From assembly GCF_000787575.1 (NCBI RefSeq), contig NW_012236532.1:1172157-1236156 (forward strand): DNA of 64,000 nucleotides, given 5' to 3'. Below the pieces are notes generated by a model. That model saw only the letters and a program-made list of their open reading frames with translations. It was not told the origin of the DNA and made no database searches. Below are positions 40,250 through 63,775 of this stretch, piece by piece (position 1 is the first letter of the stretch; each line of letters begins with the position of its first letter). The translations under genes were made by a program, and so were the position numbers. The stretch is from Acytostelium subglobosum LB1 (lineage: Eukaryota; Evosea; Eumycetozoa; Acytosteliales; Acytosteliaceae).

Positions 40250-41600
40250 ACCTTACCGAACCTCTGTCTCCAACTAGATTGACGTCCGCCATGCCACCAC
40301 GTTGACCACAGCCATGAACCTCTGTATCCATCTGTACAGTCGTCCACTGCCCAGAACCTCTGTCTCCAACTTCAGATTGGGGTCGCCACGCTGCCTTGAG
40401 TGCCCACAGCCCTGAACCTCTGTCTCCAACTAGTCTGATGTCCAACATTGTGACTCCGCCACTCTGACCGCCGCCAGCTACCAAGTTGTCCATCTCGAGT
40501 TGACCACGGCCCCGAACCTCTGTCTCCAAATAGATAGACAGCCGCCATCCGCCACGATGACCACAGCCCTTGGCCTCTGACTCCAACTAGACAGACTGCC
40601 ACGCTGCCGACCGCCATGCCGCCACATTGACCACAGCCCAGAACCTCTGACTCCACCTTGAAATACAGCCACGCTGACCACCGCCAAGTTGAACGCCGCC
40701 ACAGCCTTGATGCCAAGATGGCCACTGCCCAGAACCTCTGTCTCCAACTGGAGACTGAAGGGCCCATTGTGACTCAGCCATGCTGACCACCGCCATGATG
40801 CCATGTTGACCAAGCCCAGAACTTCTGTCTCCAACTTGACTGTCCGCCATGATGACCTGAGTGACCACAGCTCTGAAACTCTGTCTCCATCTAGACAGAC
40901 GGCCATCATTGTGCCTGCGCCATCCACATTTTAGGTTGTGCATGCCAAGCAGTCCACAGCCCAGAACCTCTGTCTCCAACTTCTGACTTCCAGCGTGCTG
41001 CCACGTTGACCACCTCCATCTCCATCTGTACAGTCGTCCGCCATGTTGCCAAGTTGTCCAGAACCTCTGTCTCCAGCTAGACTAGAGGTTGCAATGCTGC
41101 CCCGAGTCCATGAACCTCTGTCTCTAGCGGATGACCACAGCCCAGTACCTCTGTCTCCCACTAGACAGAGGTCGCCATGCTGCCAAGTAGTCCACAGTCA
41201 TGACCACCGCCACGTTACCAAGTTGTCCATCTCGAGTTGACCACAGCCCAGAACCTCTGACTCCAAATAGACTACCACTGTGCTTCCACGTTGACCATAG
41301 TCCAGGACCTCTGTCTCCAACTTGACTAACTGCCACGTTGACCACCGCCCGCCTTGTTGACCGCCTCCATGCCCAGATGGCTACCGTCGACAACCTCTGA
41401 CTCCAACCAGACAGACAGCCATGCTGACAAGTGCGACGCCATGCTGCCAAGTTGTCCATCTCGAGTTGACCACAGTCCAGAACCTCTGTCTCCAACTGGA
41501 CAGACGGCAATGCTGACAACCGCGCCGCCATGTGCCATCAGTGACCAAAGCCTCTGTCTCCAACTAGACAGACCGCAGCCATCCTGCCAAGTTGAGGAAT
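40250..41600. repeat. Degenerate satellite array (left)
   Basis: About 19 imperfect copies of a core reading gaacctctgtctccaact recur every 35-100 bp, with companion words gttgaccac, ccatgctgcc and caagttgtccatctcgag between them. The stretch is GC-richer than its surroundings. Because stop codons are rare in the repeat, four or five frames stay open on the minus strand; they read as the same VGDRGSGLWS-like peptide shifted and are not genes. The same words appear in opposite orientation at 63.8-64.0 kb. Confidence 0.85.
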
Positions 41601-43139
41601 GATCATAATCAAAGCATTAATAAACCATGAAATCAGGAGTTGTGCAAGTGTGACTTGGAAGGAGAATAACAACAATTGGAAAAGTACAACTCAATGATGT
41701 CGCCTGGGCACGGTTGCTGCCCAACGGCTTTAAAAAAAATAAAGGCAGCACTTGTGACAATGAGAAGAAACTCTCAAAGTCAACAAAGTTGCTGCCATAC
41801 CTGTCTCGACGCTGCCCAAAGTCTAATAGCGACAGGTGTAGTCCCCAGGCCGTGCCCACCCCTCTTACATGATGGGCCCACCCGTCCCTCTTGCATGACA
41901 GGCCGACCCATCCCTCTTGCATGATGGGCCACGGCCACCCCCTTGCGGAGATGGCCAAATGGTGATGGGAGGAAATGTTAGTAGTATTCGGTCCTGGAAA
42001 GGTCCACCTCGGCTTGGCCTGGCTTGGCTCGGCGGCATGGCACTCGGTCTGGCACGGCACTGGCACGGCACTGGATGACTTGGAGGGAATAGACCTCGCA
42101 ACGACAGGTCATCGTGTGAATGAATCACAACGTCTCCACTGTGTCATCTGGGTTCGGGTGATGGATGTAGGACCACTGGATTGGTGCGTTGGTAACTCGA
42201 CTTTGATATTGTTGTTGTTGTTGTTGTTGTTGGTTGTTGGTGGTTGATTGGTTTCAATCGCCAGCCGAGAGATATTTGGGTTTTACCCATCACTCATCTG
42301 CTTGATCGACGGCAAGATATAAATAGGTGAATTACTAATTGAAAAGGAGAGGGACCGGAGGAGAGCAGACTGGCTCATCCACCTCATAATCTGGTGATGG
42401 TGGATATTGGTATCTAGGTAGTGGGTGGTGGCCAATGTCTGCTTGGGTGACTGGATGACTGGATGGTAATGTTGGATATAGATGGTCTCCAGGTCTCGGT
42501 CCGAGGTCGGAATGTTGTTGATTGATTTCATTGTCTTGGATGAAAAGGACATGGACGAGGATGGTTAGTACTTTGTTTGACAGCAGACAGGAAGACATCA
42601 CTCAATCAATGAATGAATGAGTTCATTTGATGTAAACATACGATTTGGTCCCATTTGATTTGGGGTGGATACTGGTTGCCTTCTGGGGTAGACAGGCAAC
42701 GATCGTAACAACCTGAGACAGATACAGTGAATGAGCTGGACATTACTATTCTCCTGGTTGAGAGGAGCGTATGGGACAGTATTCGCAATGACAAATGCGA
42801 CATCAAGAGGAACCCTGCGTGAGAACCTGACTCCATCTTGATCCTTTCCATATAAAATCTTTGGTCGCCTGTTGTCGAACAGTGGTCTATAAATAATAAT
42901 AATATGATTGATTGATATGATTGATTGATTGATTGATTGATTGGAAGGTTGGTGAGATAGAGAGTCAATGTTAGTATTATGAATTAGAATGATGATAGTA
43001 TTATAGTAACATTGTAATAATGTTATAAAAGTGTACATACATGTATTAAAGTTGATATGGTAATGAGTGATGTCAATGCCCACTTGTCCAAGGACATTCA
43101 CCGCAATGAGAGAGTCTGTGAGTGGGTGAGAAGTGACAC

Positions 43140-43173
<34 letters not shown>

Positions 43174-43316
43174 ACTCATAAACACACATTTTGAATTAAA
43201 TATTAAATATTTAAATATATTTAATTAACAGATTGACCATTTAACGGTCCATTTGAATTTGTATCACTCAATACCATCTCAGTGTCATCATCAATGAAGT
43301 TCACAACGTTGATGAG
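41590..43316 (-). repeat. Inverted-repeat unit, left arm
   Basis: The reverse complement of this segment matches 61750-63775. A 440-bp portion (41617-42066 against 63292-63741) is almost base-identical, differing only in its last bases. The inner edge near 43280-43316 (agtgtcatcatcaatgaag) matches 61770-61795. Weaker, indel-rich similarity continues inward to about 43560. Relative to the right arm it lacks 297 bp at 42885-42888. It includes CACA and GTT microsatellites and three tandem 26-bp repeats. Confidence 0.88.
42335..42888 (-). pseudogene. Left copy of the repeat-unit gene, N-terminal part deleted
   Basis: Two exons (about 42888-42642, and 42534-42335) correspond to the C-terminal two thirds of the 208-aa gene in the right arm (PLFDNRRPKILYGKDQDG through to VPLLFN). 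The 297-bp deletion removes the start and the first exon section, so this copy has no equivalent ATG; upstream frames read into ATCA-repeat intron-like sequence. The splice sites of its last intron (donor GTATGT, acceptor ccaag) remain intact. Substitutions are few (Y for F, V for F, PLPR for QQLR). Confidence 0.6.
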
Positions 43317-43560
43317 CCTTGATTGAGGCTGAGTGATCGTTCACCAATGTATATGATTGAATGAAGTTTACAACGTTGATGGGGTCTGGATGAGCCTTGA
43401 TTGAGAGTCTGAGTGAAGTGAGCCCCACGATCGCTCCATCAGGATAGGAATACTCTTAATGAATGAATGTGCCTTGTTGTGACATTGCTCTGGTGTCCAT
43501 TCTGATCTTGATGTGCTTGCTGATGAGTGCCAAGTGGGCCGTGATGATTGAATGAGAGCA

Positions 43561-44992
43561 GAGCCTCACACTATTTGAGATGTAATGTTCTATCTTTCTG
43601 ATTGACTGATGACTGATTATGCGAGCAGTTAAGCTTGTTGAAAGGGCATGCATCACAATTGGACCAACACTCCCCCAACCAGTCAGCCAGTCAGCCAGTC
43701 AGTCAATCAATCAGTCATCAGTCAATCAGAAAGTTGTTTCCAAGCCACAGTGATCGTTGGGAAGACCGTCAAGTAATTGCCAATGTATACTTTGTTGAGT
43801 GCCAAAGTAATCGACAAAGTAATCGGGCAATGACGCATCGGAACTAAGTTTGATTAATTGTTTGAATATTCAACAACAGACTTGAGATTGATGAGGCACG
43901 GTGACTTTGGCGACTAACATTATCCAGTTGGTTGGCAATGATCGAGTACTCTTGGTCATGCTGGTCCAAAGTTCACACAAGTCCATCTCCGAAACTAGAT
44001 TGTTGCCTAACTCCTCATTCCTGTTTGACAATGTTGCTCATTCCTTTTAGATGTTGGTGGATGGCAGAATGTTGATTATCTCGCTCATGAGGAGCGTGGA
44101 CGTCATGACGCAGATCTCAATCAGGATGAAAAGAGTAGTCCAATGTTCACATTGATTGGGTTCTAAAGAAAATGCTGTACCTCATCATCATCATTATTCA
44201 TTGATTTGAATGATAGAATGATTGAATGACTGATTGTTTGATTGATTGATTGATAGAGAGTGATCATTGTACGACCCAATGAATGGTAGAATATATATAA
44301 TTACTAATGAATGGTGAGCAAACATGAAAGAGTAAATAGAATAATGAATTAAAGGCATGCATTTACTCAGTCTGTAAATTACTTGAACGATCGATCTGAG
44401 ATTGCAACACTAGTTGTGTTAATGGAGCAAACAAATAAGTGTGTGTAAAGCTTACCTTGGAGGGGGGTGTTATTTGATTAGAGATGTGTGTGTATGAATA
44501 ATGCTTGACACACCAATCATTGTTGACAACAACAACATTGACTACTTTGATCAATCCACAGGCGACACTTTCAACAACACACATTTATATATATCATTGT
44601 CCGTAATTATAAACAAACACATATATCTTTCTTTGTGATTGGTGGGGAGGTTGTGTATCACTCACTCACTCATAATCCATCCGACACATCTCTCGCACCA
44701 TTCCCCTCTCTCCAGATCGTGTTCCAGCTTTAAACCTGTAGCTCGAATCAATTACACGATCACCCATTCCCTATCTGCTGATCTATGATCATATTAGAGT
44801 GAGGGAGTAGGTGATAGTTGATCACCTTTGAGTGAGTGAGTATGTCACTATACTCATTCCATCACTATTGTCTAATTAATCAATTAATCATTAAATCATT
44901 GATACACAGACAGACAGACAGAATCAATCACTCCTTAGTTAACAAATCAATCAAACTTCTTATTTGGAAATATTAAAAAAGACAACTGGAAA
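43561..44992. other. 1.4-kb spacer with a long perfect hairpin
   Basis: Carries a 25-bp perfect inverted repeat, 43594-43618 with 43709-43733 (loop 90 bp), and CAGT/TGAT microsatellite sequence. The remainder up to the SH3 gene has CAGA repeats near 44910 and no convincing ORF. It includes the promoter of the plus SH3 gene. Confidence 0.5.
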
Positions 44993-46804
44993 ATGAATTG
45001 TTTCCAAGTTGTAGCGATCAAGGATCACAAGGCGATACATCAGTCACAGTTGTCATTTCGTAGAGGTGATACTATTGTAGTATACGAGACTGCTGCCACT
45101 GGATGGTGGCGTGGCGAACTATTGGACAAGCGTGGACTATTCCCACATACCTATGTCACCTATGACAAGGAGACCCTGGGTGCAGACCCACTTGGCACCA
45201 GCCAGAGGCAGCAACCCTTTCCACAACCACAGTCACAGTCACAATCTCAGCAGCCGACTCAACATTTGCAGATAAAAAAGAGTGCCAGTCCAGTTGGACA
45301 GGTGTCGCCTACATTGAAGGAGTTGGAGGATGACTTTGCAGAGATAGATCGTATAATATTGGCTCATTCGCCAGTTCATTCAGTGTCGCCACAGATACCA
45401 ATACCAACAACTACAACACAACATCTACAACAACAAAAGAAATCAACTACACCTCCTCAAAGGAATATTTATAACACAATATCATCGGCATCGATATCCT
45501 TGTCGACATCGCCACACTCACATTCAGCCTCCACCTCGCCACCAACAAGATTCAATCATAATGGAGTTGGTGGTGGTGGACATGGCAACAGCTCCCCTAC
45601 TCCACCAATGATCGCAGTCCAGCCATCAGACTTACAACGAGCATTGAATAAGACATCGACTACGCCACGTAGCACGACCAGTCCATCAGGAGAACAGATG
45701 GAGCAACACAATCATCTTCGTCGCGAGTTGTCTGGTCCATCAATGTCAGTGAGTGATGAAGCGGAAAAGGAGAAGACTACAAGGAATGGTGGCGCACGTC
45801 CACTTCATGGATCGGGACAGGCACAATCCAAAAGAGATGAAGAGGATGACCACCAAGAGTCGACAAAGTATATGACGTTGCCAAACTCATCAGAGTATAC
45901 CAAGGCGCGCAAGCCTTTATCATCGATGTTTGCTCAACCAACTGCAGGCACACGTATCACACTCGCTCAATGCAACTTGGATGTGCCATACTACCTCACC
46001 AGGGCCACGCTGTCCTATGTCAAGCAAGCAATGGACGAGCTGACGATCAAGACCGACGACCTGATCCTCGTGTACAACTCAAAGGACATCGATGGCGACT
46101 GGTGGGTCGGCAAGCTCAAGAGCAGCTTTGGCATCTTCCCCAAGAACTGCGTAGAGATCATCAAAGATATATCACCGCCAACCGCCAGCACTACATCTCC
46201 TCGAAAAGCGTCGGCATCAAACAGCAACACGCCACTGGCAATGTCACCATCACTCAAACAAAGTGGCAACTCTGTTGTTTCAAACAACAGCTATAACAGC
46301 GTCAACAGCAACAACATGTTCTTACGACCCACCGCCTCATCAGCATCTTCCAATGGATCACATCCAGTCCTTTCACCACTGTCCTCTCCCCAGACCAGTA
46401 CACCTTCATTGACTTCATCTCACTCACCACCTCAACATAACACATCGCCTCCAGTTACATCATCCAAGCCGCCAGCCTCGGCACCGCTACCAGTGGTGAT
46501 TGCCCCATCACCGCCACAGCCACAGCCACAGCCCCAGTCTCAGACACAGATACAAATACCAAACAAGCCAAGCATGACAGATGAGGAAGCAGCTATCGCT
46601 CAAAAGATCAAGAGTACATTCTCATTGTTTGGCAATAAGGATCAGATGCTGGAAGCGATACAAGGACTGGCAATCAAGTTTGTCAAGCAGACCAACACAC
46701 TCAAACAAGAACTGGACAATGAGCGATCTCTTCGTTTGACCTCCGAACAAGAGATTGCCAAACTGCGAGCACAGCTGGCACTGCTCCAACAACACCAAAG
46801 ATGA
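44993..46804 (+). CDS. Double-SH3 adaptor protein
   Basis: Single exon, 603 aa. SH3-1 is at the N-terminus (about 1-60; VVAIKDHKAIHQSQLSFRRG, GWWRGELLDKRGLFPHTYV). SH3-2 lies at about 325-395 (DELTIKTDDLILVYN, DGDWWVGKLKSSFGIFPKNCVEI). They are separated and followed by long Ser/Thr/Pro/Gln-rich linkers with PPxP-type stretches. The C-terminus (about 570-603; LDNERSLRLTSEQEIAKLRA) looks like a coiled coil for dimerisation. No catalytic domain is present. It is probably a scaffold for actin or membrane-trafficking partners, by analogy with other SH3 adaptors. Confidence 0.85.
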   Translation: MNCFQVVAIKDHKAIHQSQLSFRRGDTIVVYETAATGWWRGELLDKRGLFPHTYVTYDKETLGADPLGTSQRQQPFPQPQSQSQSQQPTQHLQIKKSASPVGQVSPTLKELEDDFAEIDRIILAHSPVHSVSPQIPIPTTTTQHLQQQKKSTTPPQRNIYNTISSASISLSTSPHSHSASTSPPTRFNHNGVGGGGHGNSSPTPPMIAVQPSDLQRALNKTSTTPRSTTSPSGEQMEQHNHLRRELSGPSMSVSDEAEKEKTTRNGGARPLHGSGQAQSKRDEEDDHQESTKYMTLPNSSEYTKARKPLSSMFAQPTAGTRITLAQCNLDVPYYLTRATLSYVKQAMDELTIKTDDLILVYNSKDIDGDWWVGKLKSSFGIFPKNCVEIIKDISPPTASTTSPRKASASNSNTPLAMSPSLKQSGNSVVSNNSYNSVNSNNMFLRPTASSASSNGSHPVLSPLSSPQTSTPSLTSSHSPPQHNTSPPVTSSKPPASAPLPVVIAPSPPQPQPQPQSQTQIQIPNKPSMTDEEAAIAQKIKSTFSLFGNKDQMLEAIQGLAIKFVKQTNTLKQELDNERSLRLTSEQEIAKLRAQLALLQQHQR

Positions 46805-47155
46805 TTGTTTGATTAATTGTACTATGTGCCTATTTAATTAAATATGTGTATATATATATATTATTATTATAATTATTCTACATGGTCCATTGGATGGACC
46901 AACTTGGAATGGAATCACTGGTTCGATGTGTGTATGTTGTTCCATGATGATGATGATGCTTGACTATCTGTTTGGTTTGGTTTGTTTGTTAGTTCCAACT
47001 GTTGGAATGATTGATTCCATGGTGCAGCTAAACATACCAAATGTAATTAGGTGGCGGATAATAACACTTTAGTGTAGTACATCATTCATCATTCGTGAAC
47101 CATGTTGTCATGTCATTGGATTAATGGGTCGATCGATGTGTGCTGGAACACTGTG
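46805..47155. other. Convergent spacer
   Basis: 3'-3' gap between the SH3 gene (plus) and the RRM gene (minus). Contains TA and TTG repeats and a ttagttccaactgttggaat hairpin-like stretch near 46988. No gene was seen. Confidence 0.4.
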
Positions 47156-49681
47156 TTATTTGTTGCCATGATCTGACTTCTCGTTGAAGGGTGGTTGTGG
47201 CTTGCCATAGTTGACTCGCACGATGGTGTCGCCAAGCCTCTTGCCATTGAGCGACTGAAGTGCCACAGTGGCATCGGGTATGTTCATAAAGTTGACAAAG
47301 GCACAAGCCTTCTTGCGGAGCACGCGAACCGACTCGATCTCGCCGTACCTCTCGCACTCGCGCCTGATCTCCTTCTCTGAGAGACTGTCACTGACGTTGC
47401 CAATGTAGATGGCGCGAGACAGTTGGTTGAGCGTCTCGGGCGTGGTGATCAGCGTGCCGCCCACGACGAACGGATCGTCCGACTTGGCCTGTCGATAGTT
47501 GACCACGATGAACTGGCTGCCCAGCACCTGGTTGTGCATGTTGCGCTTGGCATTGATGGCGTTGTTGACGTCCTTGAAGTTGACAAAGGCGCAGAAGCGA
47601 TCGTGGAGTATGCGCACCGACTCGAGCTCGCCATAGTTGCTAAACTCTGACTTGAGGTCGGACTCAGAGACGTCCATACCAATGTTGCCCACCCAGAGGA
47701 TGCGGCTGGGCTGCTCGTCCGAGTTGGCTTCGGCCACGGTCTCTTGGCCATTGGAGCTGAGGCTCTGGAACTCAAACCACGACAACTTGACCTTGTCGGC
47801 ACCGGGTGCAGTCTCGGCTGCCTTGGCCAAAGACTCCTTCTTCTTTCTCAACTTCTCCTCACGAAGCTTCTCCTGTGAGGCTGACAGCGGATTCTGTTGC
47901 TGCTGCTGTTGTTGTTGCTGCTGTTGTTGCTGATGTTTGTCAATGTTCTTCTTTATGTCTTTGGCATTCAACGCAGGGAAGTTAGAGTCATCCAGAGGAA
48001 TGTCTGGTACTGGCTGAGGTATTTGTGGAATCATCATTTGTTGTTGTTGCTGTTGGCTATGTTGTTGTTGTTGTTGTTGCTGTTGGTGATGATGTTGTTG
48101 TTGTTGGTGTAATTGTGGCTGTTGTTGATGTTGTTGTACTTGTGGTTGTTGTTGTTGTGTTTGTGACTGTTGTTGATGTTGTTGTACTTGTGGCTGTTGT
48201 TGTTGTTGCCTATTGATGTTGGACTGTTGGTGCATTGGTGTATTGTTGTTGGATGTGTTGAGCAGCGGTGAAACAGGAACAGGTTGAATGGTTGGTGGGT
48301 TCAGCAACTCACTCGATAGAGATGGCTTGAGTGACATGTGATGCTGTTGTTGTTGTTGATGAGAGATTCCAGACAAGTTTGGAGTGGTTCGAAGTGTTTG
48401 TGACATGGACAACTGCTGCTGCTGTTGTATCTGCTGCTGCTGCTGTATCTGTTGCTGCTGTTGCTGCAACATCTGCTGCTGTTGGAGCAGTTGATATTGG
48501 ATTTGCTGCAGCTGTGCTGGTGAGAGTTGCTGCGACAACTGAGGCTGCTGCTGTTGCTGCTGTTGTTGCTGTTGCTGCTGTGTAAAGAACTGGGGAGGAT
48601 ATGTTGGCATGCCATATTCAAAGCCAAACATCTCCTTAAAGTCCACTGATGGCAATTGATGTACATAGGGGTTGGGGGCGCCGATGGATGAACCGGAGAA
48701 CAGCTGACTGAGGGTCGAGGGTGACATGGGACGCCCCAAGCCCAGTGATGGGGACTGCTGCAAGGTGCCATTCGGTGTGGTCTGTGGCAATGAGCTGCTC
48801 CTATTTAAACTACTATTACTGATACTATTTACATTGCCGTTGTTGTTGTTGTTGCCATTCAATCCATTTACACTGCCATTTAACTTTATACTGCCACCAG
48901 TGATGCCACCACTAGTGTTGATACCGCCACTACCACTGTTATTATTACTGCCTACAACGCTACCTCCGCCACTGCTGCTGCCAATGCCGCCACTCGTGTT
49001 GAGCGAGGCGAATGCGCTAGTGGGGTACTGTGAGTAGGGGTCTGAGCCAATGCTGATTCCGTTGATGCCACCGATCAGACTGCTCATTCCACCTGTGTTG
49101 CTGCTGTTATTGTTATTGATGATATTGCCTCCACTCTGATGCAGGCCATATTTGCTGCTGTTGACACCATCCAAAAATGATAGTCTACCATCCAAATCAT
49201 TGCTTCCTATATTGTTGTTGATGTTATTGTTGCCCAGTAATATATCTGATCCATCGTTTAAATCTGATTGATGATACTGTTTCAGTTGTATATGTTGTGG
49301 TTGTTGTAAATGTGAATGTTGTTGTTGTTGTTGTTGTTGGTATCCTATATATTGTCGAGCTTGTTGCTGTTGTTGTTGTTGTTGCTGTTGCATTATCTTA
49401 TTCCTATATTCTATCGAATCGATATTGCCTGACGATGATGATGACAATCCATTTTGAATTGTAGGCAGTCCACCATTTGAATATCGAATTGACTGTTGTT
49501 GTATACTATTATTATTATTATTATTTAAGTTTATGTTATTATTGCTATTACTAATATTTGATATATTGCCACCATTGCCTATGATGCCACTCCAACTATT
49601 GTTGTTGTTGTTGCTGAAACCATTGGCTACTCCTCCACTCATCTGATGATGTGGATTCCTTTCGTGAAGAGGAAAGGACAT
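47156..49681 (-). CDS. Poly-Q/poly-N RNA-binding protein with two RRMs
   Basis: Single exon, 841 aa. The first ~610 residues are dominated by Asn, Gln, Ser and Gly runs, typical of dictyostelid prion-like regions. Two RRMs are at the C-terminus: RRM1 (about 670-745; RILWVGNIGMDVSESDLKSE, RFCAFVNFKDVNNA) and RRM2 (about 757-830; AIYIGNVSDSLSEKEIRREC, KACAFVNFMNI). RNP2 (LWVGNI, IYIGNV) and RNP1 (CAFVNF) are clear in both, with Cys where Gly/Tyr is usual. Likely an mRNA-binding regulator prone to condensate formation. The coding DNA has long CAA/CAG tracts, so its length may be polymorphic. Confidence 0.88.
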   Translation of the reverse strand: MSFPLHERNPHHQMSGGVANGFSNNNNNSWSGIIGNGGNISNISNSNNNINLNNNNNNSIQQQSIRYSNGGLPTIQNGLSSSSSGNIDSIEYRNKIMQQQQQQQQQQARQYIGYQQQQQQQHSHLQQPQHIQLKQYHQSDLNDGSDILLGNNNINNNIGSNDLDGRLSFLDGVNSSKYGLHQSGGNIINNNNSSNTGGMSSLIGGINGISIGSDPYSQYPTSAFASLNTSGGIGSSSGGGSVVGSNNNSGSGGINTSGGITGGSIKLNGSVNGLNGNNNNNGNVNSISNSSLNRSSSLPQTTPNGTLQQSPSLGLGRPMSPSTLSQLFSGSSIGAPNPYVHQLPSVDFKEMFGFEYGMPTYPPQFFTQQQQQQQQQQQQPQLSQQLSPAQLQQIQYQLLQQQQMLQQQQQQIQQQQQIQQQQQLSMSQTLRTTPNLSGISHQQQQQHHMSLKPSLSSELLNPPTIQPVPVSPLLNTSNNNTPMHQQSNINRQQQQQPQVQQHQQQSQTQQQQPQVQQHQQQPQLHQQQQHHHQQQQQQQQHSQQQQQQMMIPQIPQPVPDIPLDDSNFPALNAKDIKKNIDKHQQQQQQQQQQQQQNPLSASQEKLREEKLRKKKESLAKAAETAPGADKVKLSWFEFQSLSSNGQETVAEANSDEQPSRILWVGNIGMDVSESDLKSEFSNYGELESVRILHDRFCAFVNFKDVNNAINAKRNMHNQVLGSQFIVVNYRQAKSDDPFVVGGTLITTPETLNQLSRAIYIGNVSDSLSEKEIRRECERYGEIESVRVLRKKACAFVNFMNIPDATVALQSLNGKRLGDTIVRVNYGKPQPPFNEKSDHGNK

Positions 49682-51532: not shown

Positions 51533-54500
51533 TTACTTTTGAAGCATGACCAACTGCAGACCAGAAGCCTCCTTGCCAATCTCGGCAAGCTGGCAGGTTG
51601 GACACACCTTGCCCTTGTGAGCTGGCTGGTAAGAGGTCATACACAAAGGACACTTGACCATTGGCGATCCCTTGTATATTGGTGTCAAAGTGAGACCACA
51701 AAGTACGAATGGATTGCGCTCATCATAGTTCATCTTAATATCTCCTGCTGTAGGGTTCTGTTGAGCAAAGTTGAATACCTTACGAGCCTATTATGTTATT
51801 GAATGAATGATCGAGTGTCAGTATGGATCACAATCAGTCCATCAATCAACCAATGTTAAACATACTTGAGTTGACAGTTCTTGAGGTGGATTAAGGTCGA
51901 GTAGTCTCTTGGCAAATGATGAGGCCAATGTGAAGTTCTTGACCTTGTAGGCGCAGTTCATGGCGGATCTAAGACTGAGAATCAAATGGGTTGGTTCTAA
52001 ATTACAGTGCGTGAAGTAGGCGGCCAGCTCAGCATGTCTGCTGCCCAGCTCAATCTGCTTGCGCTCCAGCTCCAGTCTGATGCCCATGATGTACTCGCGA
52101 CACACGCTCATCAGCTCCTTGACCTCGTTGAACTCCTGTCGGTTGTCGACGGTCGTGAACAGTGATGTGTGTAGAATGTAGGTGAAGTGCTCCAGTGCTT
52201 CGTTAAATCTGCCCTCGGTGGTGGCGCGGTACGCCTGTGACTTTAGTCGGTCGATCAAGTGGTTGAGGTTGTAGGGGATGAATGGTTGTCCGTGCTTGCG
52301 CTGCACTGGCTCTAGCAGTGATGGCACCGATGTGAGGGCGCCCAGCGACAGACGTGTGGCCTGGTGGATGTTAAGGAACAGTTGCTTGAGTGGCTCAAAG
52401 TTGACGATACCCAGCTGTTGGTTGAAGATGTTCATGGCGGTCTCGAAGGAGCCCGATGCGACGTGGTCCACGGCAAAGTTGGAGTTGCGTGCCCAAATCT
52501 GGCTGAACGATGGGCCTGGTTGTGGTGGTACAAAGAAGGAGTCTTGATGGCCAGAGTCAACAGACTCGAGGCCCTTGAGCTCGTCCAGTCCCCATCCCTC
52601 GCCTCCAGTCGCTTCGATCTCAATGTCGTCCTCCCATCCACCGTCCTCAGTCTTGGCGGGCTTGTCTGTGGCAGAGTCCTCGTCCATGACGTCCTCGTCA
52701 CCCCAGCCGCCACCTCCAGTGGCGATGGGACTAGAATCTCCGCTGCCTCCGTCTTCCATGCCAAACTTTCTTCCATCGCCAGCATTCAAATCGATCGAGG
52801 TCTTGGCAATGGTGAGAAGTGGCCAGTTGGTCTCGGCGGCAATGTATACGGGTTGTGGGGGCTGTAGGAGAGTGGTGTTCTTGGGAATGTTGGGCAGCTG
52901 GTTGTTCTTTGGATTGGCAAGAATCTGCTTGGCAATGGCCTCGGCCTTCTCGGTGAGACCGTTGGTGGCTGCGGCCAGATAGGCCAGGTGATGCAGTCCG
53001 GCCTCGAGCAGGAGCTTAATGCGCTCATCGACATCGCCCAGGTAGAGGGCGTACTGGAACTTGCTCATGATGTCGGTGTTCTCGTAATTGACCATCTTCT
53101 TGAGTGTGGTGAGGTTGCCCACCAGCAGGTAGAGGAAGCTCAGACGATCAAACTCTCCAGTCCTGCTGTATGCCATCTCGACGATCTGGTGGTTGCCCTG
53201 GCGCAGGGCCTCCACACCAAGACGCGACCAGCACTCCTTGTCGTCCAGGATCTTGGCAGACTGCAGTGCAATGTCGATGTTGCCACACTCAAGGGCCAGG
53301 TTGAAACGTGTGCGGTCGTCCTTGACAAAGTGGACGACGTCGGGGTAGCCCTTCTTCTGGAGGTAGCCAATGATGGACTTGCCTACGAGACGGCTCTCGC
53401 GAAGGATCTTAATGACGTCGCCGTACTTCTTCTGCAGGAGCGACAGCTTGAGGATGTATTCGGTGTTGTCGATCTCGATCACACGCTTCTTGAACTCGCG
53501 GTCCATGGCAAACACCTTGCTGCCCTTGACACCAGTAAGGTAGAGGGTGGTGTCGATGGTCTTGATTGTGCCATTGTCGCCGTTTGGTAACAGGTACTTG
53601 AGATGGTTGGATGTGGTGTAGATGAACACTCCATGCTCGTCCCACACACCGCTCTTGGGCAGGACGGCCTCGCTGACGATGCAGATCTGCTCCAGCTTCC
53701 TGGTGGCCAGGATGATACTGTCACGTGCCAACAAGGCAACAAAGTTGAAGTCCTTGGACCAGATGACGTAGCGGATGGATGGGGTGGCCAGCTCGGCCAC
53801 GGGGTTCTTGGTCTGGATGTCAAAGAGCATCATCTTCTCGTCTGACATAACGAGGACGTGGCCAACGGGCGCGGGGAACAGCCACTCAACAGTGACGGCG
53901 GGCTGGAAGCGCTTGACCTCCTCATTGTCGATGCCCTTGATGATGATGTTGTTGGACTTGTCCAACACGGCGAACCTGTTGCTGCCGACAAAGATGGCAG
54001 CCATGCCAGTGCCCTTCTTGGTGTCGACGTTGTTGGTGTCCCTGGTGGGGATCTTGTACAGGTGGTAGGAGCCGCCCTCAGAGTCGGACGACACGAGCAC
54101 AGCGCGCTCGGCAGCATTGTACGACATGACCTGTGTGCCGTTGTTTGCGGGCAGCTTGGTAATGTTGAACAGAGGGATCGAGCGACCGGTCGAGAAGTCG
54201 TACGAGTTGAAGTGCTTCTTCTTGAGATAGAAGATGCCCTCGGTGCCGTTGAACACGTAGGTGGGACGCTCGCGCTCAAGCTTGAACACGATCATGCCGC
54301 TGTCGTGGCCTGCGGCAAACAGGTTGGCGGTGGGGTGAGACGCCAGAGTCCAGAAGCGATCGTGCTCACGACGGATGGTTTGAATGGGTGTGCGCTTCAC
54401 CATGTCCCAGATGCGGATGGTCTTGTCCTCCGAGTCTGAGATGATGAGGTCCTGTCGCGGGTGGAACAGTGCACACGACACATTGTTGAGATGGCCACGG

Positions 54501-55316
54501 AAGGTGTCGACATTGTCGTTCATCTTCCACAGCTTGACCTGGTGGTCGTCCGAGGCCGACACGATGTATGGCTGGGTGGGATGGAATGCTGCCCAGTTGA
54601 CACCACGGTCGTGGCCCTCCAGCGACAGCTTGACGACGACGTCCGTGCCAAAGATCTCGTCCTGCAGTCTGAGTGTGTCGTTGTTCTGGTAGGCCTTGAT
54701 TGTGGTGGTCTTCTTCTTGAGGCCCGAGATGTCCCAGATTCTGATAGTCTGATCGAGTGAGGCCGACACGATCAGGTCGTCCTTGGGATGGAAGCTGGCG
54801 CACATCACATAGTGGTTGTGGCCATTGAGCTCGGCGATGCAGGTTCTCGACTGCCAGTTCCAGATTCTGATGATCTGATCGTCCGATGCAGACAAGATCC
54901 ATGGGGCCTCGCGATGGAACTCCACTGTCCTAATGTAGTCCTTATGTCCCTTCAATGTGAACAAACAACGACGCTGCTTATAATTCCAAACCTTGATCTT
55001 ATAATCATCGCCACCACTGACAAACAATGGCTGAGTATGATGGAAGTTGATACCTCTTACAGGTCCTGTTTGTTTGTTTTGTTTGTTTGTTTGTGTTTTA
55101 TGTTAGTTTGATTGATTGATCATCATTGAGCATCATTGAGTCAGCTGGTCTCTGGACCATACCATCATGCTCTTCAAACTTCTCCAACACAGTCTTGATG
55201 CGATAATCATAGAGATGGATGGCACCAGAGTGCAAGGAAGCAAGGATCCATGGACGAGTTGGATGGAAGCTCAGTCCCTTGACTCTATTGCTCTTTGTTT
55301 CATATTTATACAACAT
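51533..55316 (-). CDS. copa: Coatomer subunit alpha (alpha-COP)
   Basis: Exons 55316-55163, 55065-51866 and 51787-51533 give 1202 aa, the usual alpha-COP length. It begins [20 protein letters not shown], followed by six to seven WD40 repeats ([63 protein letters not shown]), then the second propeller and alpha-solenoid. An acidic Gly/Trp stretch ([13 protein letters not shown]) follows. The C-terminal domain ends in a Cys cluster ([33 protein letters not shown]). It is the largest COPI subunit, binding KKxx cargo for Golgi-to-ER transport. It diverges from the RPC3 gene, with 475 bp between them. Confidence 0.97.
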
Positions 55317-55791
55317 CTTGTGTTCTTTCTTTCTTTCTTTAAGGTTGTAGATCGATCTATATATTGAGTATGCTTCTGTATATAAATCTCAATCAACTAC
55401 TATTAGTATGTTTATATATTAAAAGATATATATATATGATAGTTACACAAAGCATACAATATGTGTAATGTAATGTAATGAAATGAATGATTGAATGAAG
55501 ATGTTGATGATCAACAAAGTTGGTGAACTCTGAGTCATTATCCTCTTCACCACTCAAAATTGAATTTTTTGTGTGTATTTGACTTTGTTGGCACTGCATC
55601 GGTGGGCATTGTCAAATTGGTCCCATAAACAAACAAAGAATAACGTTATCTACCCCTTCGGTCTTCGCGCCATTCTTGTCTTATACTCAAACTCGACTAC
55701 CATTATTACAAATATACAGATTGATTGGAGACAGACGAGTTTGAGTACTCATTCATTCGTTCAATCAATCAATCAAACAAACAAACAAACA
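55317..55791. other. Divergent copa / polr3c promoter region
   Basis: AT-rich, with TTTC and TATA repeats on the copa side. The half nearer polr3c holds a DUSE-like word (55621), an E2F-like TTCGCGCC (55664-55671) and the hairpin described separately. Confidence 0.5.
55684..55747 (+). ncRNA. Candidate DUSE-driven small hairpin RNA (class I RNA-like)
   Basis: A perfect 12-bp inverted repeat (tactcaaactcg at 55684-55695, cgagtttgagta at 55736-55747) would pair the two ends of a 64-nt transcript. TCCCATAA at 55621-55628 fits the Dictyostelium upstream sequence element (A/T)CCCA(C/T)AA and lies 63 nt before the stem. That is the known DUSE spacing for dictyostelid small ncRNA genes, and 64 nt is at the upper end of class I RNA lengths. 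The conserved class I motif CCTTACAGCAA is not visible in the loop, so this may be another small RNA or only a 5'-UTR hairpin of polr3c. Confidence 0.3.
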
Positions 55792-57395
55792 ATGTACAAA
55801 GAGAAAGTAGCTTGCGACATCGTCAAAGAGTTCTTTGGTGAAGATGTAGAGGTAAGTGTTAGTCTCTTGACTGTTGAACGACTCACTGACTGACTGACTG
55901 ATTGACTCAATCACTCAATCACTTGAACAGAGTGTATATAGACTACTGGTCACTCGAGGCAAATCAATATTGAGGACTATAGTACAATCGATAGATGGAT
56001 TGAATACAAAGAGAGTTAGACAATGTCTGTTGGTATTGATTCAACATAATCTTGTGGAGTATGAGGAGTTCCTGGTGCCAAAGGATAAGAAGGATGCTGC
56101 CGCTGCAAAGGCAGCGAATCAACAGCCGACAATTGACGACGTGTCGGATGCATACTACACGGCCAACCTCGGCCAGGCTATTCATCGTCTGCGATTCCCA
56201 AAGTACATCAACTTTATCCGCGAGAGGATGGGCGATGCCGCCGCCATCCTGATCGAGGAGCTCATCGATAATGGTCGTCTCACGATGGAGGCTGTCGTCA
56301 GTCAGACTGCCGCCTACACCAAGCAGCGCACAGGCAGCTACGGAGACGACTTGAATCAACAGTTTGAGGAGGTCTTTACACAGTTGGTCGTCGAGCACTT
56401 TATCATGAAGGCGCCCTATCCCAAGCCCATCATGCCGGGCGAGGAGCAGATGGAGAACTTTCACAAGGACGTCAAGGCTGCCAGCAAGACAACTCTCTCG
56501 CGTCAGCAGCAACAGGCATTGCACGACCCATTTGCCCTGCCATCCTCGCTCGTCAAGAAGACGACAAAGATCGACGATAACGTTGTGAGCAATCGAGCAG
56601 TGTCAATCTCACCATCCGAGACCTCACCCGCAGCGCCCAAGAAGGGCACCAAGAAGACCTCCGCCAAGCCCTCAGCAAAGTCACCAACAGGAGGAAAGGT
56701 AGGTTGCGTGCGTCGTGAACATCGTTTGTAGTATGTACTAACTTGATTCAAACAGCCAACTAGAAAGAGAAAGACACTTGATGAGGATGATGAGTCATTG
56801 CCAGATGTACTTCTTGTGTCAGAGTCGGCACCGGTTGATATCCCATTGGATGACTCATTCCAGCCTCTCAAGCGACGTGCAGTCGATGTATATACAGTTG
56901 TCGATGGCGAGGAACAGAACCAACAGCTCGCCAACGAGGAGAAGAAGATACTGTGGCGTGTAAACTATGACCAATTCATCATTGAGTTAAAGATCATTGT
57001 ATGTATTATACTGGCCTGGCCTGGCCTGGCTCAATCAACCAATCAATCAGTCTAACACAATCATTCATCCACATCATCACCAGTCATGTTATGAGTTTGT
57101 TCATTCAAAGTTGGACAAGAAGGCAGCTGATTTGTTCAGCTCAATGGTCAATCTTTGCAAGAAGTCGATCAAATTGAACCAGGAACACAATACAACATCG
57201 ATATTTGCCGATGACATCTTAAAGGAGTACAACAGCACTTCGGATATGAATCATCAGATGGACAATAGAGAGCTCGAGAGCTACCTGCCCCTGATGCAGG
57301 CCACACGTCCGTCCATCATCACCAAGATGCAGGCACAATCCCGATCGTCCATGGCCGAAATGGGCGGTGTTTATCAAGTTAGTAAGTATCCCGTC

Positions 57396-57447
<52 letters not shown>

Positions 57448-57999
57448 TCCTAACTCATCTGTGACGCCAAACAAACAAACATAGACATATCGAATATCTC
57501 AGCAGTGCTGAAGCAAAAGATGGTGGAATCAATCATCAAGCAGAAGTTTGGTGACGCAGGACTGAGAGTGTTCAAGTTGTTGCTCATCAAGAAGCAGTTG
57601 GAGCCAAAGCAGATATCGGACTTTGCAATGATACCCCTGAAGGACTCAAAGGTGTTGTTGTTCAAGATGATGGAGAGGTCAATCATCAAGCTGCAGGAGG
57701 TGCCTCGCTCCAGCGATCACTTTGCCGCGCGTACCTTCTATCTCTTCTATGTGGACTACAATAATGTGGCGCAGATGTTTGTCGACGACATTTACAAGGC
57801 CGTGTTCAACTGTCGCGAGCGACTGCGTGCAGAGATGGCACCACATGCCGACATGGTGGCCAAAATGGAGACAATCCCAGAGGATCAGCTGTCTGATGAT
57901 CAGACCAAGCTGTTGCGCAAAGTACAACGAATCACAGAGACACTCGAGACAATGGTCATGAACCTGGACACAGACCTCTTGGTTATCAGCAGCTATTAG
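55792..57999 (+). CDS. polr3c: RNA polymerase III subunit RPC3/RPC82
   Basis: Exons 55792-55851, 55931-56698, 56756-56998, 57084-57381 and 57485-57999 join in frame to 627 aa. The 20-residue first exon (MYKEKVACDIVKEFFGEDVE) leads into winged-helix repeats: SVYRLLVTRGKSILRTIVQ, then RVRQCLLVLIQHNLVEYEE, the RFPKYINFIRERMGDAAAIL region, a Lys/Ser/Pro linker, ILWRVNYDQFIIELK, and a C-terminal coiled coil with LLRKVQRITETLETMVMNL. This matches Pol III RPC3, which with RPC6 and RPC7 forms the initiation subcomplex. Intron 4 (57382-57484) contains about 13 ATCA repeats. Confidence 0.9.
57395..57447. repeat. (ATCA)n microsatellite in polr3c intron 4
   Basis: About 13 uninterrupted ATCA units. Shorter tracts of the same word fill most introns of the window. 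Confidence 0.8.
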
Positions 58000-58048
58000 T
58001 TAGTTGTCGCCATTCAATACAGCTGTATCGTGTCAATCCATTTTAATG

Positions 58049-60038
58049 TTATGAATCACCATCTTGGGAGGATGAAGTCTTTATCCAACAATTGCCTGGG
58101 AACCACCATATTGGCTTTGGCTCGCTGCCTTTGCCATCGCTCGTTGCCTGTTCCTGTTCCAGCTTGATTCTAAGTGTTTCGTAGAAGTTTGCCAACTCTG
58201 GTGACTTTGGTGCGCCAATGCCTTCACTATGCATCATATACAAGTTGGTTATCGCTGCTATATTCTTGGGCTATATGTGTATGTATTGTATTGGATTAGT
58301 GACTGGTTGGAAACCATATGATATGACCGCTTCTTACATTATATTGATAAGAGTTCTGGTAACAATAGAATGATGTCTCGTAGTCAATGTCAGTGCCATA
58401 GCCATTGTAGTACATGACACCTTGATTGAGCGCGGCATCAGAGTTGCCAAGTGCTGCACTCTCACTAAAGTAGTAGAGTGCCTTCTTGTAGTTGATCTGA
58501 TAGCCTTCCTGTCCACTAAAGTATACCTCACCCATGCAGAGCAATGCCACGGGGTCGCCACCTGCCACGCCCAGCTTTATGAACCTTCTGAACTTATCCG
58601 GATGCTCTCCATTGTGATGCAGAAGTGCGAGCATTGTGGCGGCCTTGGCGCTTCCCTGTTCAGCGGCCCTCAGCAGCAGTTGGAAGCCAACACTTTGTAC
58701 CGGTTGCTTGTTGACCACGCCCAAAAAGAATGATGCCAGCCAGTATGTCGCCTCTGCCAGTCCGCGATTGGACGCAACATTGATGTTGTCAAATGCCTTT
58801 TCTTGTAGATCTCGCTGTGAGGTTGGTTCATTGTGTTGTTTGAGTTAGTATAGTGATGGACATTCATTGAACGTTCAAACTTACTGCAGCCTTGTGTCTT
58901 GGATTGAGTTCACCACTTTGTATACCATTGTCCAACTTGGCGTAGTAGTAGAGTCCAACTTGATGCATTGCTTCCAGGTCCACTCTCTCCTTTGATGCCT
59001 TGTCCAGCCAATACAGTGCTTTCTTCTCATTCTGCTCCATGCCATACTTTCCTTGAAGTAATACAAGTCCAAGCTAATCGTTTGTTTGATTGATTGATTT
59101 GTGTGAGTGGAATGAATGATAAGCTATCATCCATCAATCAAACATACAGTCAACTGTGCATGCCAATAACCTTGGATGGCACTTAGGGTTAGCCAGCGTA
59201 GACCTTCTTTCTTTCGCGCCAGTTCTAATTGCTCTTGACGATAGATTGAACCAGACTCTTTGAGCTCGCGCACACGTTGTCTCTCCTGTTGAAGCCATTT
59301 GAAATAGTCAAAGTCAGCGGCGTCGTCATTCGATATCCATCCTTCGCCAATGATCGTGGTGGACTTGTTGTTGTTGGCGCCTTTCTTTGCTTGGGCAGCG
59401 GCGTTGAGTGATGGGAATACCGGCTTGAACACAGTGAGTGCCGATCCGCTGAGATAGGCGATGCCCAGTGCGTACTGGCCCTCGGCCAAATCATGATCTG
59501 CTGCGCGCTTATACCAGAACAGCGCCTTGTCTGCGTCTGCCTTGTCCATGCCGATGCCCTGAGCAAAGAATGTGCCCAGGTGGAACTCGCACAATGAATC
59601 ATTCAACTTCAAGTCCTTGATATACTGTGCCAATCTATCACTCTCTGTCTTGTTCAATGTTGACTGTTGACTCGATACAACATCCAGCAATGATTGAAGC
59701 AGTTGTTTGGCTTGAGGTTTAGATGTTTCGTCCAAAGTTGATGCCGTCGAATAATGTCTAATGGGCGTGATCAATGACTTTATACTACTGATGACATTGT
59801 TGTTGCTATTGTTGTAGATGTTGTTGGTATGGTTGAGTACTCTACAATATCTTCTTGATGATGATGATGTGCTGTATCTTATTATTGGCCTTGCGATTGA
59901 CATCAACAAGAGACTACTACTGCCACCACCACCTTGAGGTATTGTTGTTGTCAATGATGACTGATGTGATGACTGAAACACATTAACAAGTGAAGACCGC
60001 AGTCTCCTTGTGTGTAGATGTTGTCTATTCAATAGCAT
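58049..60038 (-). CDS. Mitochondrial-type SEL1 (TPR-like) repeat protein
   Basis: Exons 60038-59148, 59073-58885, 58814-58338 and 58270-58049 join in frame to 592 aa. The N-terminus is strongly basic and Ser/Arg-rich with no acids for about 100 residues (MLLNRQHLHTRRLRSSLVNV, SSSSRRYCRVLN), a good mitochondrial presequence. SEL1-like repeats follow: LGTFFAQGIGMDKADADKAL, AADHDLAEGQYALGIAYL, QVGLYYYAKLDNGI, AAEQGSAKAATMLALLHHNG, LCMGEVYFSGQEGYQINYKK, ALNQGVMYYNGYGTDIDYET and LYMMHSEGIGAPKS. No transmembrane segment is evident. Such proteins act as scaffolds, for example in respiratory-complex assembly; the specific role is unknown. It is convergent with polr3c, only about 50 bp away. Confidence 0.88.
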
Positions 60039-60483
60039 ACCCTCTATCTCTCTCTCTCTCTCTCTCTCTATCTCACACTGCTTACAATGATGACACCAGG
60101 ATAATAATTAGTTCGATCCCTTGATAAGTTCGATTGTTTAGGATTCGTGACCGATCGATTTGAGGATGCAAACAAAGATTAGATTTCCGAAAGTTTAAAC
60201 ATTCTAGATATTAATGTGAATGTGATGATCTAACACCCACCTCACTCTGGAATGATTCCAATCAGTCAATCAATCTTTTAATTAATCATATCATTCCTTC
60301 AACTAGTGCATTACCTTGGCACATTAGTCGAGAGTCCATCACCATCAATGAACAAACAAGCACACATACACAAGACAAGAGAGTTCTCAAACTAGACTCA
60401 CTCACCCAATGCTTTCAACCAATCAGCAAGATGAGTGATTTTATAGCTCATTTGTCACTGATCTATCTGTTGGAGAAACAATA
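60039..60483. other. Spacer upstream of the SEL1 gene
   Basis: Contains a CT microsatellite (60050-60070), a GATCGAAC-like repeat pair near 60110-60130 and one TGGAATGATTCCA palindrome (60248-60260), the only perfect intergenic copy. No ORF was seen. Confidence 0.4.
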
Positions 60484-61218
60484 TTATTTATAACAATGGG
60501 TATGTGGAGACGTTGGTGCCGGTGGGGAAACATGTCCAACGTCTCCAATACAATCGACCAAAATGTTGGGGCCATGTTGGAGCGGATCGGGCGCAGGATT
60601 GAGAGCAGTCCAGAATGGTACTCTCCGTGAGCACACAGTCGGATGGCCTGGCACGACAGTCATGTTCTGGAAGTACTCATGTTGGAAGCCTACAGTATCC
60701 AGTTGATCCATGTGTAGCTGGTATTGGAGTCGGTGTTGATTCCGCTCTTGTTGTGTGGCTCCAGCAGCGAGGGGAGCTGGCATTGGGTTTGAAATGGCAC
60801 CGATCTGAGCAGGCACCCCAGGATGCATAAACTGACCGGCCAGGTCATGATGTGGAACCAAATGGTACGGCAAAAGAGGAGCACCTGCAGAAGGGATGCA
60901 ACCGAACAAGTAGATGCTATCGCCCTTTCCATCCACTAAAAGTCCAGACTGAACTCCATTCTCCAGATAGAAAATCATCTTGTACCTTAGAGTGGAAAGC
61001 TGGTCGTTGTAGGGTCGGCATTCCATCTCAAAACTTGGTGACACACGAATGCTCATACACCTCCTCTCTCCTGGGCCTCGAGCCTCATGAACTGCTGTTG
61101 GGTAATACGATGCATCTGGTATCCTGAATAGAGGTGATATGTTGATGTCAGTGTTAACAGGGACTTTGATAAGATGATCGTCAATCAACACGAGGTCGAG
61201 ATTGAAGTTGGAAGGTGT
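60484..61218 (-). CDS. Orphan protein, 5' exon unresolved
   Basis: An open frame of about 240 codons runs from a possible splice acceptor (aacttag before ACACC, 61219-61220) to a stop at 60484. No ATG lies between the upstream in-frame TAG and LVLIDDHLIKVPVNTDINIS. The composition is that of a real protein, with few repeats: RIPDASYYPTAVHEARGPGE, YNDQLSTLRYKMIFYLENGV, DSIYLFGCIPSAGAPLLPYH, and a Gln/Arg-rich helix ERNQHRLQYQLHMDQLD. It ends Pro-rich. I do not recognise the family. The first exon is probably upstream in 61240-61560; a short ATG frame there (MDKSIVERILSIPWRI) could belong to it but does not join in phase with the simplest splice. It may instead be a gene remnant beside the right inverted repeat. 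Confidence 0.5.
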   Translation of the reverse strand, partial: TPSNFNLDLVLIDDHLIKVPVNTDINISPLFRIPDASYYPTAVHEARGPGERRCMSIRVSPSFEMECRPYNDQLSTLRYKMIFYLENGVQSGLLVDGKGDSIYLFGCIPSAGAPLLPYHLVPHHDLAGQFMHPGVPAQIGAISNPMPAPLAAGATQQERNQHRLQYQLHMDQLDTVGFQHEYFQNMTVVPGHPTVCSRRVPFWTALNPAPDPLQHGPNILVDCIGDVGHVSPPAPTSPHTHCYK

Positions 61219-61749
61219 CTAAGTTATCTGTTGTAATTCTCCAAGGGATGGAAAGAATTCTTTCTACTATGGATTTATCCATTCTTTCTACAATTCCTGT
61301 GTGATGAATGAATGAATGACGATAGATTGACATCGTGCTTTGATTGACTGTCATCCTACCAATTTAATTAATAAATGAGATTGAACTTCACCCCCAACCA
61401 ATTTCTCACCACTGTCATTGGTAGAACATCACTCATTCTAAAGAGAGGTTGGCTTGCTTTGCCAATATCATTTAGTATTGCTCATTAATACAACCAATGT
61501 AGCTACAACATCTTGGACAGTTGTCAACTCATTAGATTAATGTTTGCATGTATCCAAGTCAGACTTTAATCGGGAAGCGATGCACTAATTCAATCGTCAC
61601 CACCCACTACACCACCAGATCACATGCAAGCTCATCAACATCACAATGGACACCTGAGAAGAGCAGTGTCACAAAAAGACTCATTCATTAATTCATTCAT
61701 CAGAGTATTCTAGGTGGAACGATAGTAGGGGCTCACTTAGTATTAACCA
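61219..61749. other. Spacer at the inner edge of the right repeat arm
   Basis: Contains a 14-bp palindrome gaaagaattctttc near 61252. From about 61590 onward, patchy similarity to the reverse complement of 43320-43560 appears (caatggacacc, agtgtcacaa, gagtattc, ggggctcactt). No gene call. Confidence 0.4.
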
Positions 61750-62298
61750 AGACTCATCAACGTGAACTTCATTGATGATGACACTGAGATGGTATTGAGT
61801 GATACAAATTCAAATGGACCGTTAAATGGTCAATCTGTTAATTAAATATATTTAAATATTTAATATTTAATTCAAAATGTGTGTTTATGAGTGTGTGAGT
61901 GTGTGTGTGTGTGTGTGAGTGTGTGTGAGTGTCACTTCTCACCCACTCACAGACTCTCTCTCATTGCGGTGAATGTCCTTGGACAAGTGGGCATTGACAT
62001 CACTCATTACCATATCAACTCTATTACATGTATGTACACTTTTATAACATTATTACAATGTTACTATAATACTATCATCATTCTAATTCATAATACTAAC
62101 ATTGACTCTCTATCTCACCAACCTTCCAATCAATCAATCAATCAATCAATCATATCAATCAATCATATTATTATTATTTATAGACTCTCTACTTCGGCTT
62201 TTGCCAAACTATTATCTACAAAACTATAATATCACTTTAAACAGTGTTTTCCAACACTACTACGCCTTCTTCAACTCGACTTTATTATTATTCTTACA

Positions 62299-63032
62299 AT
62301 GCAATTTAATTATATTCAATCACTCTATCCACCAGCCAAGCCCCTTAGACTGTTGTTTGACCCGACAGTTCCCAAGACCTTGCTTCTGACCACCGAAAAA
62401 GGCACGATCATCAGGAAGTTCAAGGTCTTCATTGACATTGGCGCGACACTTCTCATACGCCCATATGTCAAACCAATCAGACCACTGTTCGACAACAGGC
62501 GACCAAAGATTTTATTTGGAAAGGATCAAGATGGATTCAGGTTCTCACGCAGGGTTCCTCTTGATGTCGCATTTGTCATTGCGAATACTGTCCCATACGC
62601 TCCTCTCAACCAGGAGAATAGTAATGTCCAGCTCATTCACTGTATCTGTCTCAGGTTGTTACGATCGTTGCCTGTCTACCCCAGAAGGCAACCAGTATCC
62701 ACCCCAAATCAAATGGGACCAAATCGTATGTTTATATCAAATGAACTCATTGATTCATTGATTGAGTGATGTCTGCCTGTCTGCTGTCAAACAAAGTACT
62801 AACCATCCTCGTCCATGTCCTTTTCATCCAAGACAATGAAATCAATCAACAACCTTCCGACCTCGGACCAAGACCTGGAGACCAACTATATCCAACATTA
62901 CCATCCAGTCATCCAGTCACCCAAGCAGACATTGGCCACCACCAACAACTCAGATACCAATATCCACCATCACCAGATTATGAGGTGGATGAGCCAGTCT
63001 GCTCTCCTCCGGTCCCTCTCCTTTTCAATTAG
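62299..63032 (+). CDS. Unrecognised protein encoded in the repeat unit
   Basis: Two exons, 62299-62725 and 62833-63032, separated by an intron with a GTATGT donor, a gtactaac branch-like sequence and a ccaag acceptor; the join is in frame and yields 208 aa. The protein starts MQFNYIQSLYPPAKPLRLLF, continues KGTIIRKFKVFIDIGATLLI and PLFDNRRPKILFGKDQDGFR, then LDVAFVIANTVPYAPLNQEN. It ends in a Pro/Tyr-rich tail (QLYPTLPSSHP, RYQYPPSPDYEVDEP). The beta-rich core and PPxY-like tail faintly suggest an arrestin-type fold, but I would not assign it. An additional 5' exon (LIAVNVLGQVGIDITHYHIN at about 61960-62029) is likely, so the start is uncertain. Confidence 0.5.
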
Positions 63033-63428
63033 TAATTCACCTATTTATATCTTGCCGTCGATCAAGCAGATGAGTGATGGGTATAACCCAAATATCTCTC
63101 AGCTGGCGATTGAAACCAATCAACCACCAACATCAACAACAACAACAACAACAACAAAGTCGAGTTACAAACGCACCAATCAGTGGTCCTACATCCATCC
63201 CCTTACCCAGATGACACAGTGGAGACGTTGTGATTCATTCACACGATGACCTGTCGTTGCGAGGTCTATTCCCTCCAAGTCATCCAGTGCCGTGCCAGTG
63301 CCGTGCCAGACCGAGTGCCATGCCGCCGAGCCAAGCCAGGCCAAGCCGAGGTGGACCTTTCCAGGACCGAATACTACTAACATTTCCTCCCATCACCATT
63401 TGGCCATCTCCGCAAGGGGGTGGCCGTG

Positions 63429-63506
63429 GCCCATCATGCAAGAGGGATGGGTCGGCCTGTCATGCAAGAGGGACGGGTGGGCCCATCATGTAAGAGGGGT
63501 GGGCAC
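63429..63506. repeat. Three tandem 26-bp repeats in the right arm
   Basis: Copies at 63429-63454, 63455-63480 and 63481-63506 share a gcccatcatgcaagagggayggg pattern (at most 20 bases shared exactly). The same array is present in reverse at about 41850-41927 in the left arm. Confidence 0.75.
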
Positions 63507-63775
63507 GGCCTGGGGACTACACCTGTCGCTATTAGACTTTGGGCAGCGTCGAGACAGGTATGGCAGCAACTTTGTTGACTTTGAGAGTTTCTTCTCATTG
63601 TCACAAGTGCTGCCTTTATTTTTTTTAAAGCCGTTGGGCAGCAACCGTGCCCAGGCGACATCATTGAGTTGTACTTTTCCAATTGTTGTTATTCTCCTTC
63701 CAAGTCACACTTGCACAACTCCTGTCTTCATCGTTTATTAATGCTTTGGAAACACTCGTCAACTTGGCAGGATGG

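Follow-up and report, generated by a model that had tools for sequence, protein, structure and literature searches.

The centromeres of Candida tropicalis are described as repeat-bearing loci of about 10 kb, one per chromosome, with few or no open reading frames (ORFs), and their inverted repeats are homogenised (identity is 82% between different chromosomes and 93% on the same one; PMC4741521). Among the dictyostelids, CenH3 and H3K9me3 are reported at the DIRS-1 clusters of Dictyostelium discoideum (PMC11754127). Most dictyostelids, according to another account, have no DIRS clusters of the D. discoideum type, and their centromeres must be organised otherwise (PMC5006619). A text search of the literature for Acytostelium together with centromeres returned a single paper, in which each is mentioned once. 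Here we analyse a stretch of 64,000 nucleotides (hereafter the window; C56:1172157-1236156 in our numbering of the contigs) from Acytostelium subglobosum LB1, a species with a published genome of 30.9 Mb, 55% A+T and 18 chromosomes (PMC4334915). The window holds two facing arms, which are copies of a repeat module that is gathered in gene-poor clusters on a number of scaffolds. We suggest, tentatively and with a confidence a little short of even, that these clusters are transposon-free candidate centromeres and that an inversion has divided the one in the window.

The clusters resemble the centromeres of C. tropicalis in being repeat loci of similar size that are alike between scaffolds (here 92-98% identity in the core of the module for copies on different scaffolds). 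They differ in arrangement, as the modules are mostly direct and are inverted on C56 and C43 only, where the inverted parts lie 18 kb (C56) and about 40 kb (C43) apart. Also, small ORFs are embedded in the modules. Whereas in the inverted-repeat centromeres of C. tropicalis and Schizosaccharomyces pombe each locus has a central core that is free of genes, six of the ten cluster scaffolds in A. subglobosum carry direct modules, and the block between the arms of the window is full of genes. Like the DIRS-1 clusters of D. discoideum, these are dictyostelid repeat clusters; those of D. discoideum are found at one place per chromosome, and those described here, among the matches listed, at one locality on each of ten scaffolds and on one small contig. 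The D. discoideum clusters, however, are retrotransposons (DIRS/Skipper) at one chromosome end, whereas those of A. subglobosum are interior and free of the reverse transcriptase domain RVT_1: none of the 18 RVT_1 matches in the genome lies inside a cluster (no search for tyrosine recombinase was made).

Inverted arms and the repeat module

A preliminary description of this DNA had proposed inverted repeats of about 2 kb flanking a block of housekeeping genes. Self-BLAST of the window against its own reverse strand confirms the arms, which are slightly longer than was first given. Two inverted matches were obtained: 41356-42888 against 63984-62479 (94.9% over 1538 columns) and 42885-43336 against 62185-61733 (96.7% over 456 columns). 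The homology goes on inward at a weaker level (71.8% over 163 columns), and a stretch of 293 bp in the right arm (62186-62478) is absent from the left arm. The top inverted match scores 2374 bits; when the window was shuffled 20 times with a first-order Markov model, no inverted match scored above 50 bits.

The left arm belongs to a larger module that begins near 39801, beyond what the preliminary description covered. The order within the module is leader, GC-rich degenerate satellite, core, antisense small ORF (of one of two types, A and B) and tail. The corresponding features of the window are as follows.

39801-40330, + strand: leader of the left module, where homology common to other clusters starts, with AAATTTGAATTTGAAATT near its start (cluster map, leader alignment)
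40200-41600, + strand: GC-rich degenerate satellite, with a unit containing AACCTCTGTCTCCAACTAGACAG (genome search, self-BLAST, tandem repeats)
41590-42888, + strand: left arm, module core (self-BLAST, genome search, copy alignment)
42601-42900, - strand: remnant of a type A ORF, residues 57-156 only (genome search with the ORF)
42885-43700, + strand: left tail of the module, fading beyond 43336 (self-BLAST, shared-sequence map)
43337-61732, strand not applicable: gene-rich block between the arms, 18.4 kb (Pfam)
61501-62185, - strand: right tail of the module (self-BLAST, shared-sequence map)
62299-62769, + strand: complete type A ORF, 156 amino acids (ORF list, translated searches)
62479-63775, - strand: right arm, module core (self-BLAST, genome search)
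63776-64000, - strand: start of the right satellite, ended by a gap of 8051 N (genome search, N-run listing)

Sixteen leaders, chosen from BLAST hits and not representing every module, align with a common start. The most conserved stretch of the module is the core, which lies outside the ORF: among 11 type A modules its mean identity over 500 bp is 97.5-99.4%. The two arms of the window are particularly close to each other in the tail (99.5%, against at most 95.0% to any other copy), while in the core they share 98.0%, against up to 97.9% to other copies. Both the combined tree (support 0.999) and the tree of gene and tail (0.991) place them as sisters.

Distribution and content of the clusters

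Many further copies were found when the genome (30.73 Mb in 56 contigs) was searched, and the unit is not single-copy. The search scores the best candidates only, so small copies may be missed; among these candidates there were 47 matches to the left arm, 85 to the satellite, 59 to the right arm, 137 to a 3-kb intermodule stretch of C40 and 35 to a 2.5-kb cluster edge of C55. Using these five probes and both ORFs, long matches were listed only on C56, C43, C40, C21, C53, C55, C41, C23, C50, C54 and C1. On the other 45 of the 56 contigs the listed matches are at most 55 bp long and mostly simple repeat. The longest strays on the cluster scaffolds measure 251 bp (C55:966605), 175 bp (C56:1127776), 171 bp (C54:630806) and 166 bp (C50:39862).

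The clusters span roughly 5-12 kb and have discrete borders, at which their homology ends; on the map, which leaves out C43:758-786 kb, each flank is unique to its own locus among those fetched. Among the matches listed no scaffold shows a second, distant cluster, those on C43 and C56 being split. The six scaffolds with direct modules carry two each, with their cores about 5.1-6.1 kb apart; C23 and C54 have one main module each in the 10 kb fetched. On C43 the split cluster occupies 740.7-749.8 kb and 789-795.5 kb, and its inverted parts resemble those of the window. The clusters of C21 and C53 are more closely related to each other than to any other cluster (98% identity in both core and tail, support 0.999), a pattern that points to recent exchange or copying between the two scaffolds. 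The unplaced 11-kb contig C1 (C1:1-11119) ends on one side in a type B module and includes several kb that are not common to other clusters; it may represent the border of an eleventh cluster, or else the half that the cluster on C54, C23 or C56 lacks.

The clusters are interior, with 50-399 kb separating them from the nearest end of their scaffold, which speaks against the subtelomere-like duplication that had initially been considered. No telomere repeats were recognised in 20 contig starts and 14 further end stretches, several of which begin with N. The true chromosome ends would thus lie further out, unless the scaffolds are wrong. Three scaffold ends (C53:1-100, C56:1343162-1343261 and C49:1263127-1263226) look alike by eye, and a repeat therefore probably breaks the assembly there.

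The clusters are gene-poor compared to their flanks, even though small module ORFs are present. ORFs of at least 200 amino acids cover 2.2% of the bases in clusters (101,662 in total) but 46.6% of those in the flanks (150,531); for ORFs of at least 150 amino acids the values are 11.2% and 51.1% (C1 is left out of this comparison). A flanking stretch of 3.5 kb at C43:786-796 kb likewise lacks such ORFs. Rfam gave no match in five cluster loci (L014, L015, L018, L022 and L025), and no transfer RNA (tRNA) was found in 20 loci.

Candidate centromeres

We propose that each arm is a copy of a module that is chromosome-specific and free of transposons and that forms one gene-poor cluster on each of several chromosomes. 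Of the explanations considered, the likeliest, though a tentative one, is that these clusters mark the centromeres of A. subglobosum and are candidate regional centromeres. In their poverty of genes, lack of transposons, confinement to particular chromosomes and homogenised sequence, they have the appearance expected of a small regional centromere. Exchange between clusters would keep the copies on different chromosomes alike, the core most of all. An inversion with one breakpoint inside the cluster of the window would then have left two sister modules in opposite orientation, one on either side of 18.4 kb of ordinary genes. That the arms could reflect such a rearrangement had been suggested from the start; it fits because they are each other's closest relatives in the combined tree, but the tree of the core disagrees.

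A number of observations weigh against the centromere proposal. In the tree based on the core only, the arms of the window are not sisters and relationships are mixed, although this is also what exchange between clusters would be expected to produce. Eleven clusters were seen against 18 reported chromosomes, and the large scaffolds C52 (1.50 Mb) and C51 (1.38 Mb) have no cluster among the matches listed. The finding of one cluster per scaffold is itself weak evidence, because the probability that ten sites placed at random are all on separate scaffolds is P = 0.22 (calculated with 25 contigs assigned their mean length). Moreover, the cluster borders were judged by eye on a map, and on C56 and C43 the clusters are split, with parts that are inverted and separated by about 18 and 40 kb of unique DNA. 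Finally, the intact small ORFs, with a ratio of nonsynonymous to synonymous substitution rates (dN/dS) of about 0.4-0.5, suit a gene family better.

Small ORFs and the gene-family alternative

According to this last explanation, each cluster is an island of A and B protein genes, which form a small, lineage-specific family and whose tandem pairs were spread across chromosomes by duplication; satellite and core would be regulatory or untranslated DNA, and there would be no centromere role. We consider this a serious possibility, but on balance a doubtful one. Among the matches listed genome-wide, nine near-full-length type A copies (at least 147 residues) are free of stops and three places are partial, and the ORF is open in all eight other contigs tested by tblastn. 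Type B (187 amino acids) is listed at eight places, two of them with a stop, and its C1 copy is in two pieces. Both types are confined to clusters among these matches, and the A and B proteins keep approximately 35% amino-acid identity. In the aligned type A ORFs the sole indel within the body is 3 bp long, and the C41 copy has a shifted end.

The dN/dS ratio is 0.47-0.48 for type A (nine copies) and 0.37 for type B (seven copies, 18 usable pairs), whereas 1.06 and 1.08 were obtained for the two other forward frames of type A. In reverse frames the ratio is 1.48, 0.85 and 0.47, and because one of them gives the same ratio as the ORF itself, dN/dS alone decides nothing; the reverse frame in question holds 10-16 stops per copy. 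Variable sites number 23, 17 and 29 at the three codon positions. Overall, frame and substitution data are mild evidence that the ORFs may be coding.

On the other hand, the ORFs make up a small part of the clusters, and conservation is strongest in the core, which does not include the ORF. Truncations or stops are present in several copies; in the left arm of the window the 5' part of the type A ORF is gone along with the 293-bp deletion. Tandem pairs of related small genes at several places are also a feature of dictyostelid multigene-family islands, but unlike these the clusters are otherwise gene-poor and have a conserved non-coding core and a satellite. No known protein family was matched: the type A ORF of the window has no Pfam match at 0.01, and a comparison of the module ORF with PDB chains gave no relative at E 10. 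Among ten ORF members, two matched DUF2773 at 0.13 and four matched a dioxygenase model of NCBIfam at 0.053; we judged both identities to be due to chance. An AlphaFold model of the window ORF alone is not usable (mean predicted local distance difference test score, pLDDT, 35.7).

Assembly error and mobile elements as less likely alternatives

Another alternative concerns the arrangement only and is compatible with all other readings, the centromere proposal included: the inverted orientation could be an assembly error beside a gap, the right arm being misplaced or turned. A run of 8051 N (C56:1236157-1244207) begins one base beyond the end of the window, and this scaffold gap truncates the right arm. 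N runs occur in or at clusters on four of the ten scaffolds (C56, C21, C54 and C43), and the prevalence of direct rather than inverted modules would also suit an error. We nevertheless think it unlikely, since the right arm meets the gene block without intervening Ns and the arms are closest relatives in the tail and combined trees, as expected on the same chromosome.

That the clusters are selfish or neutral, being made of a mobile element or satellite block that has no function for the host and was copied from site to site, would agree with the many copies, the degenerate satellite within them and the mosaic relationships (core and tail trees differ), but is quite improbable given that the clusters hold no reverse transcriptase, that no lone modules are listed away from them (fragments of at most 251 bp only), that the leaders of some clusters begin alike while the sequence outside differs, and that no target-site duplication was seen in the leader alignment (no systematic test was made). 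A transposon or long terminal repeat (LTR) element was rejected, because all reverse transcriptase matches lie outside the clusters; unlike in an LTR retrotransposon, there is no reverse transcriptase between the direct repeats.

The gene block between the arms

The genes named in the preliminary description are indeed present between the arms according to Pfam: COPA, RPC82/POLR3C HTH_9, SPFH/Band_7, Sel1, RRM and SH3. The view of the 18-kb block as a repeat unit did not hold, however, as the block is ordinary gene-rich DNA and it is the arms that are members of a family of dispersed clusters. On the shared-sequence map most of 43337-61732 has no sequence in common with other clusters. The window has a GC content of 44.8% (base counts), and no Rfam match or tRNA was found in it. 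Adjoining the right arm, an ORF at 60484-61191 (- strand) matches Uma2, a putative restriction endonuclease family, with 23.2 bits, which is below the cut-off of 27. A 787-amino-acid ORF at 37101-39464 (- strand), just left of the left module, has weak sub-threshold ankyrin matches. FNIP repeats are abundant in the genome (207 matches from the best 150 of 3777 candidates), with none in 14 control genomes.

Conclusions

The centromere proposal can be extended, although we regard the extended version as speculative and rather unlikely to hold in full. The centromeres of A. subglobosum might consist of a non-transposon module with its own conserved A/B protein family, homogenised by exchange between clusters. 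The proteins may act on the clusters, and inversions with a breakpoint in a cluster (in the window, perhaps also on C43) may remodel the karyotype, which counts 18 chromosomes against 6-7 in relatives. The clusters are concrete centromere candidates with known coordinates, and as such would make the question of how dictyostelid centromeres are organised testable.
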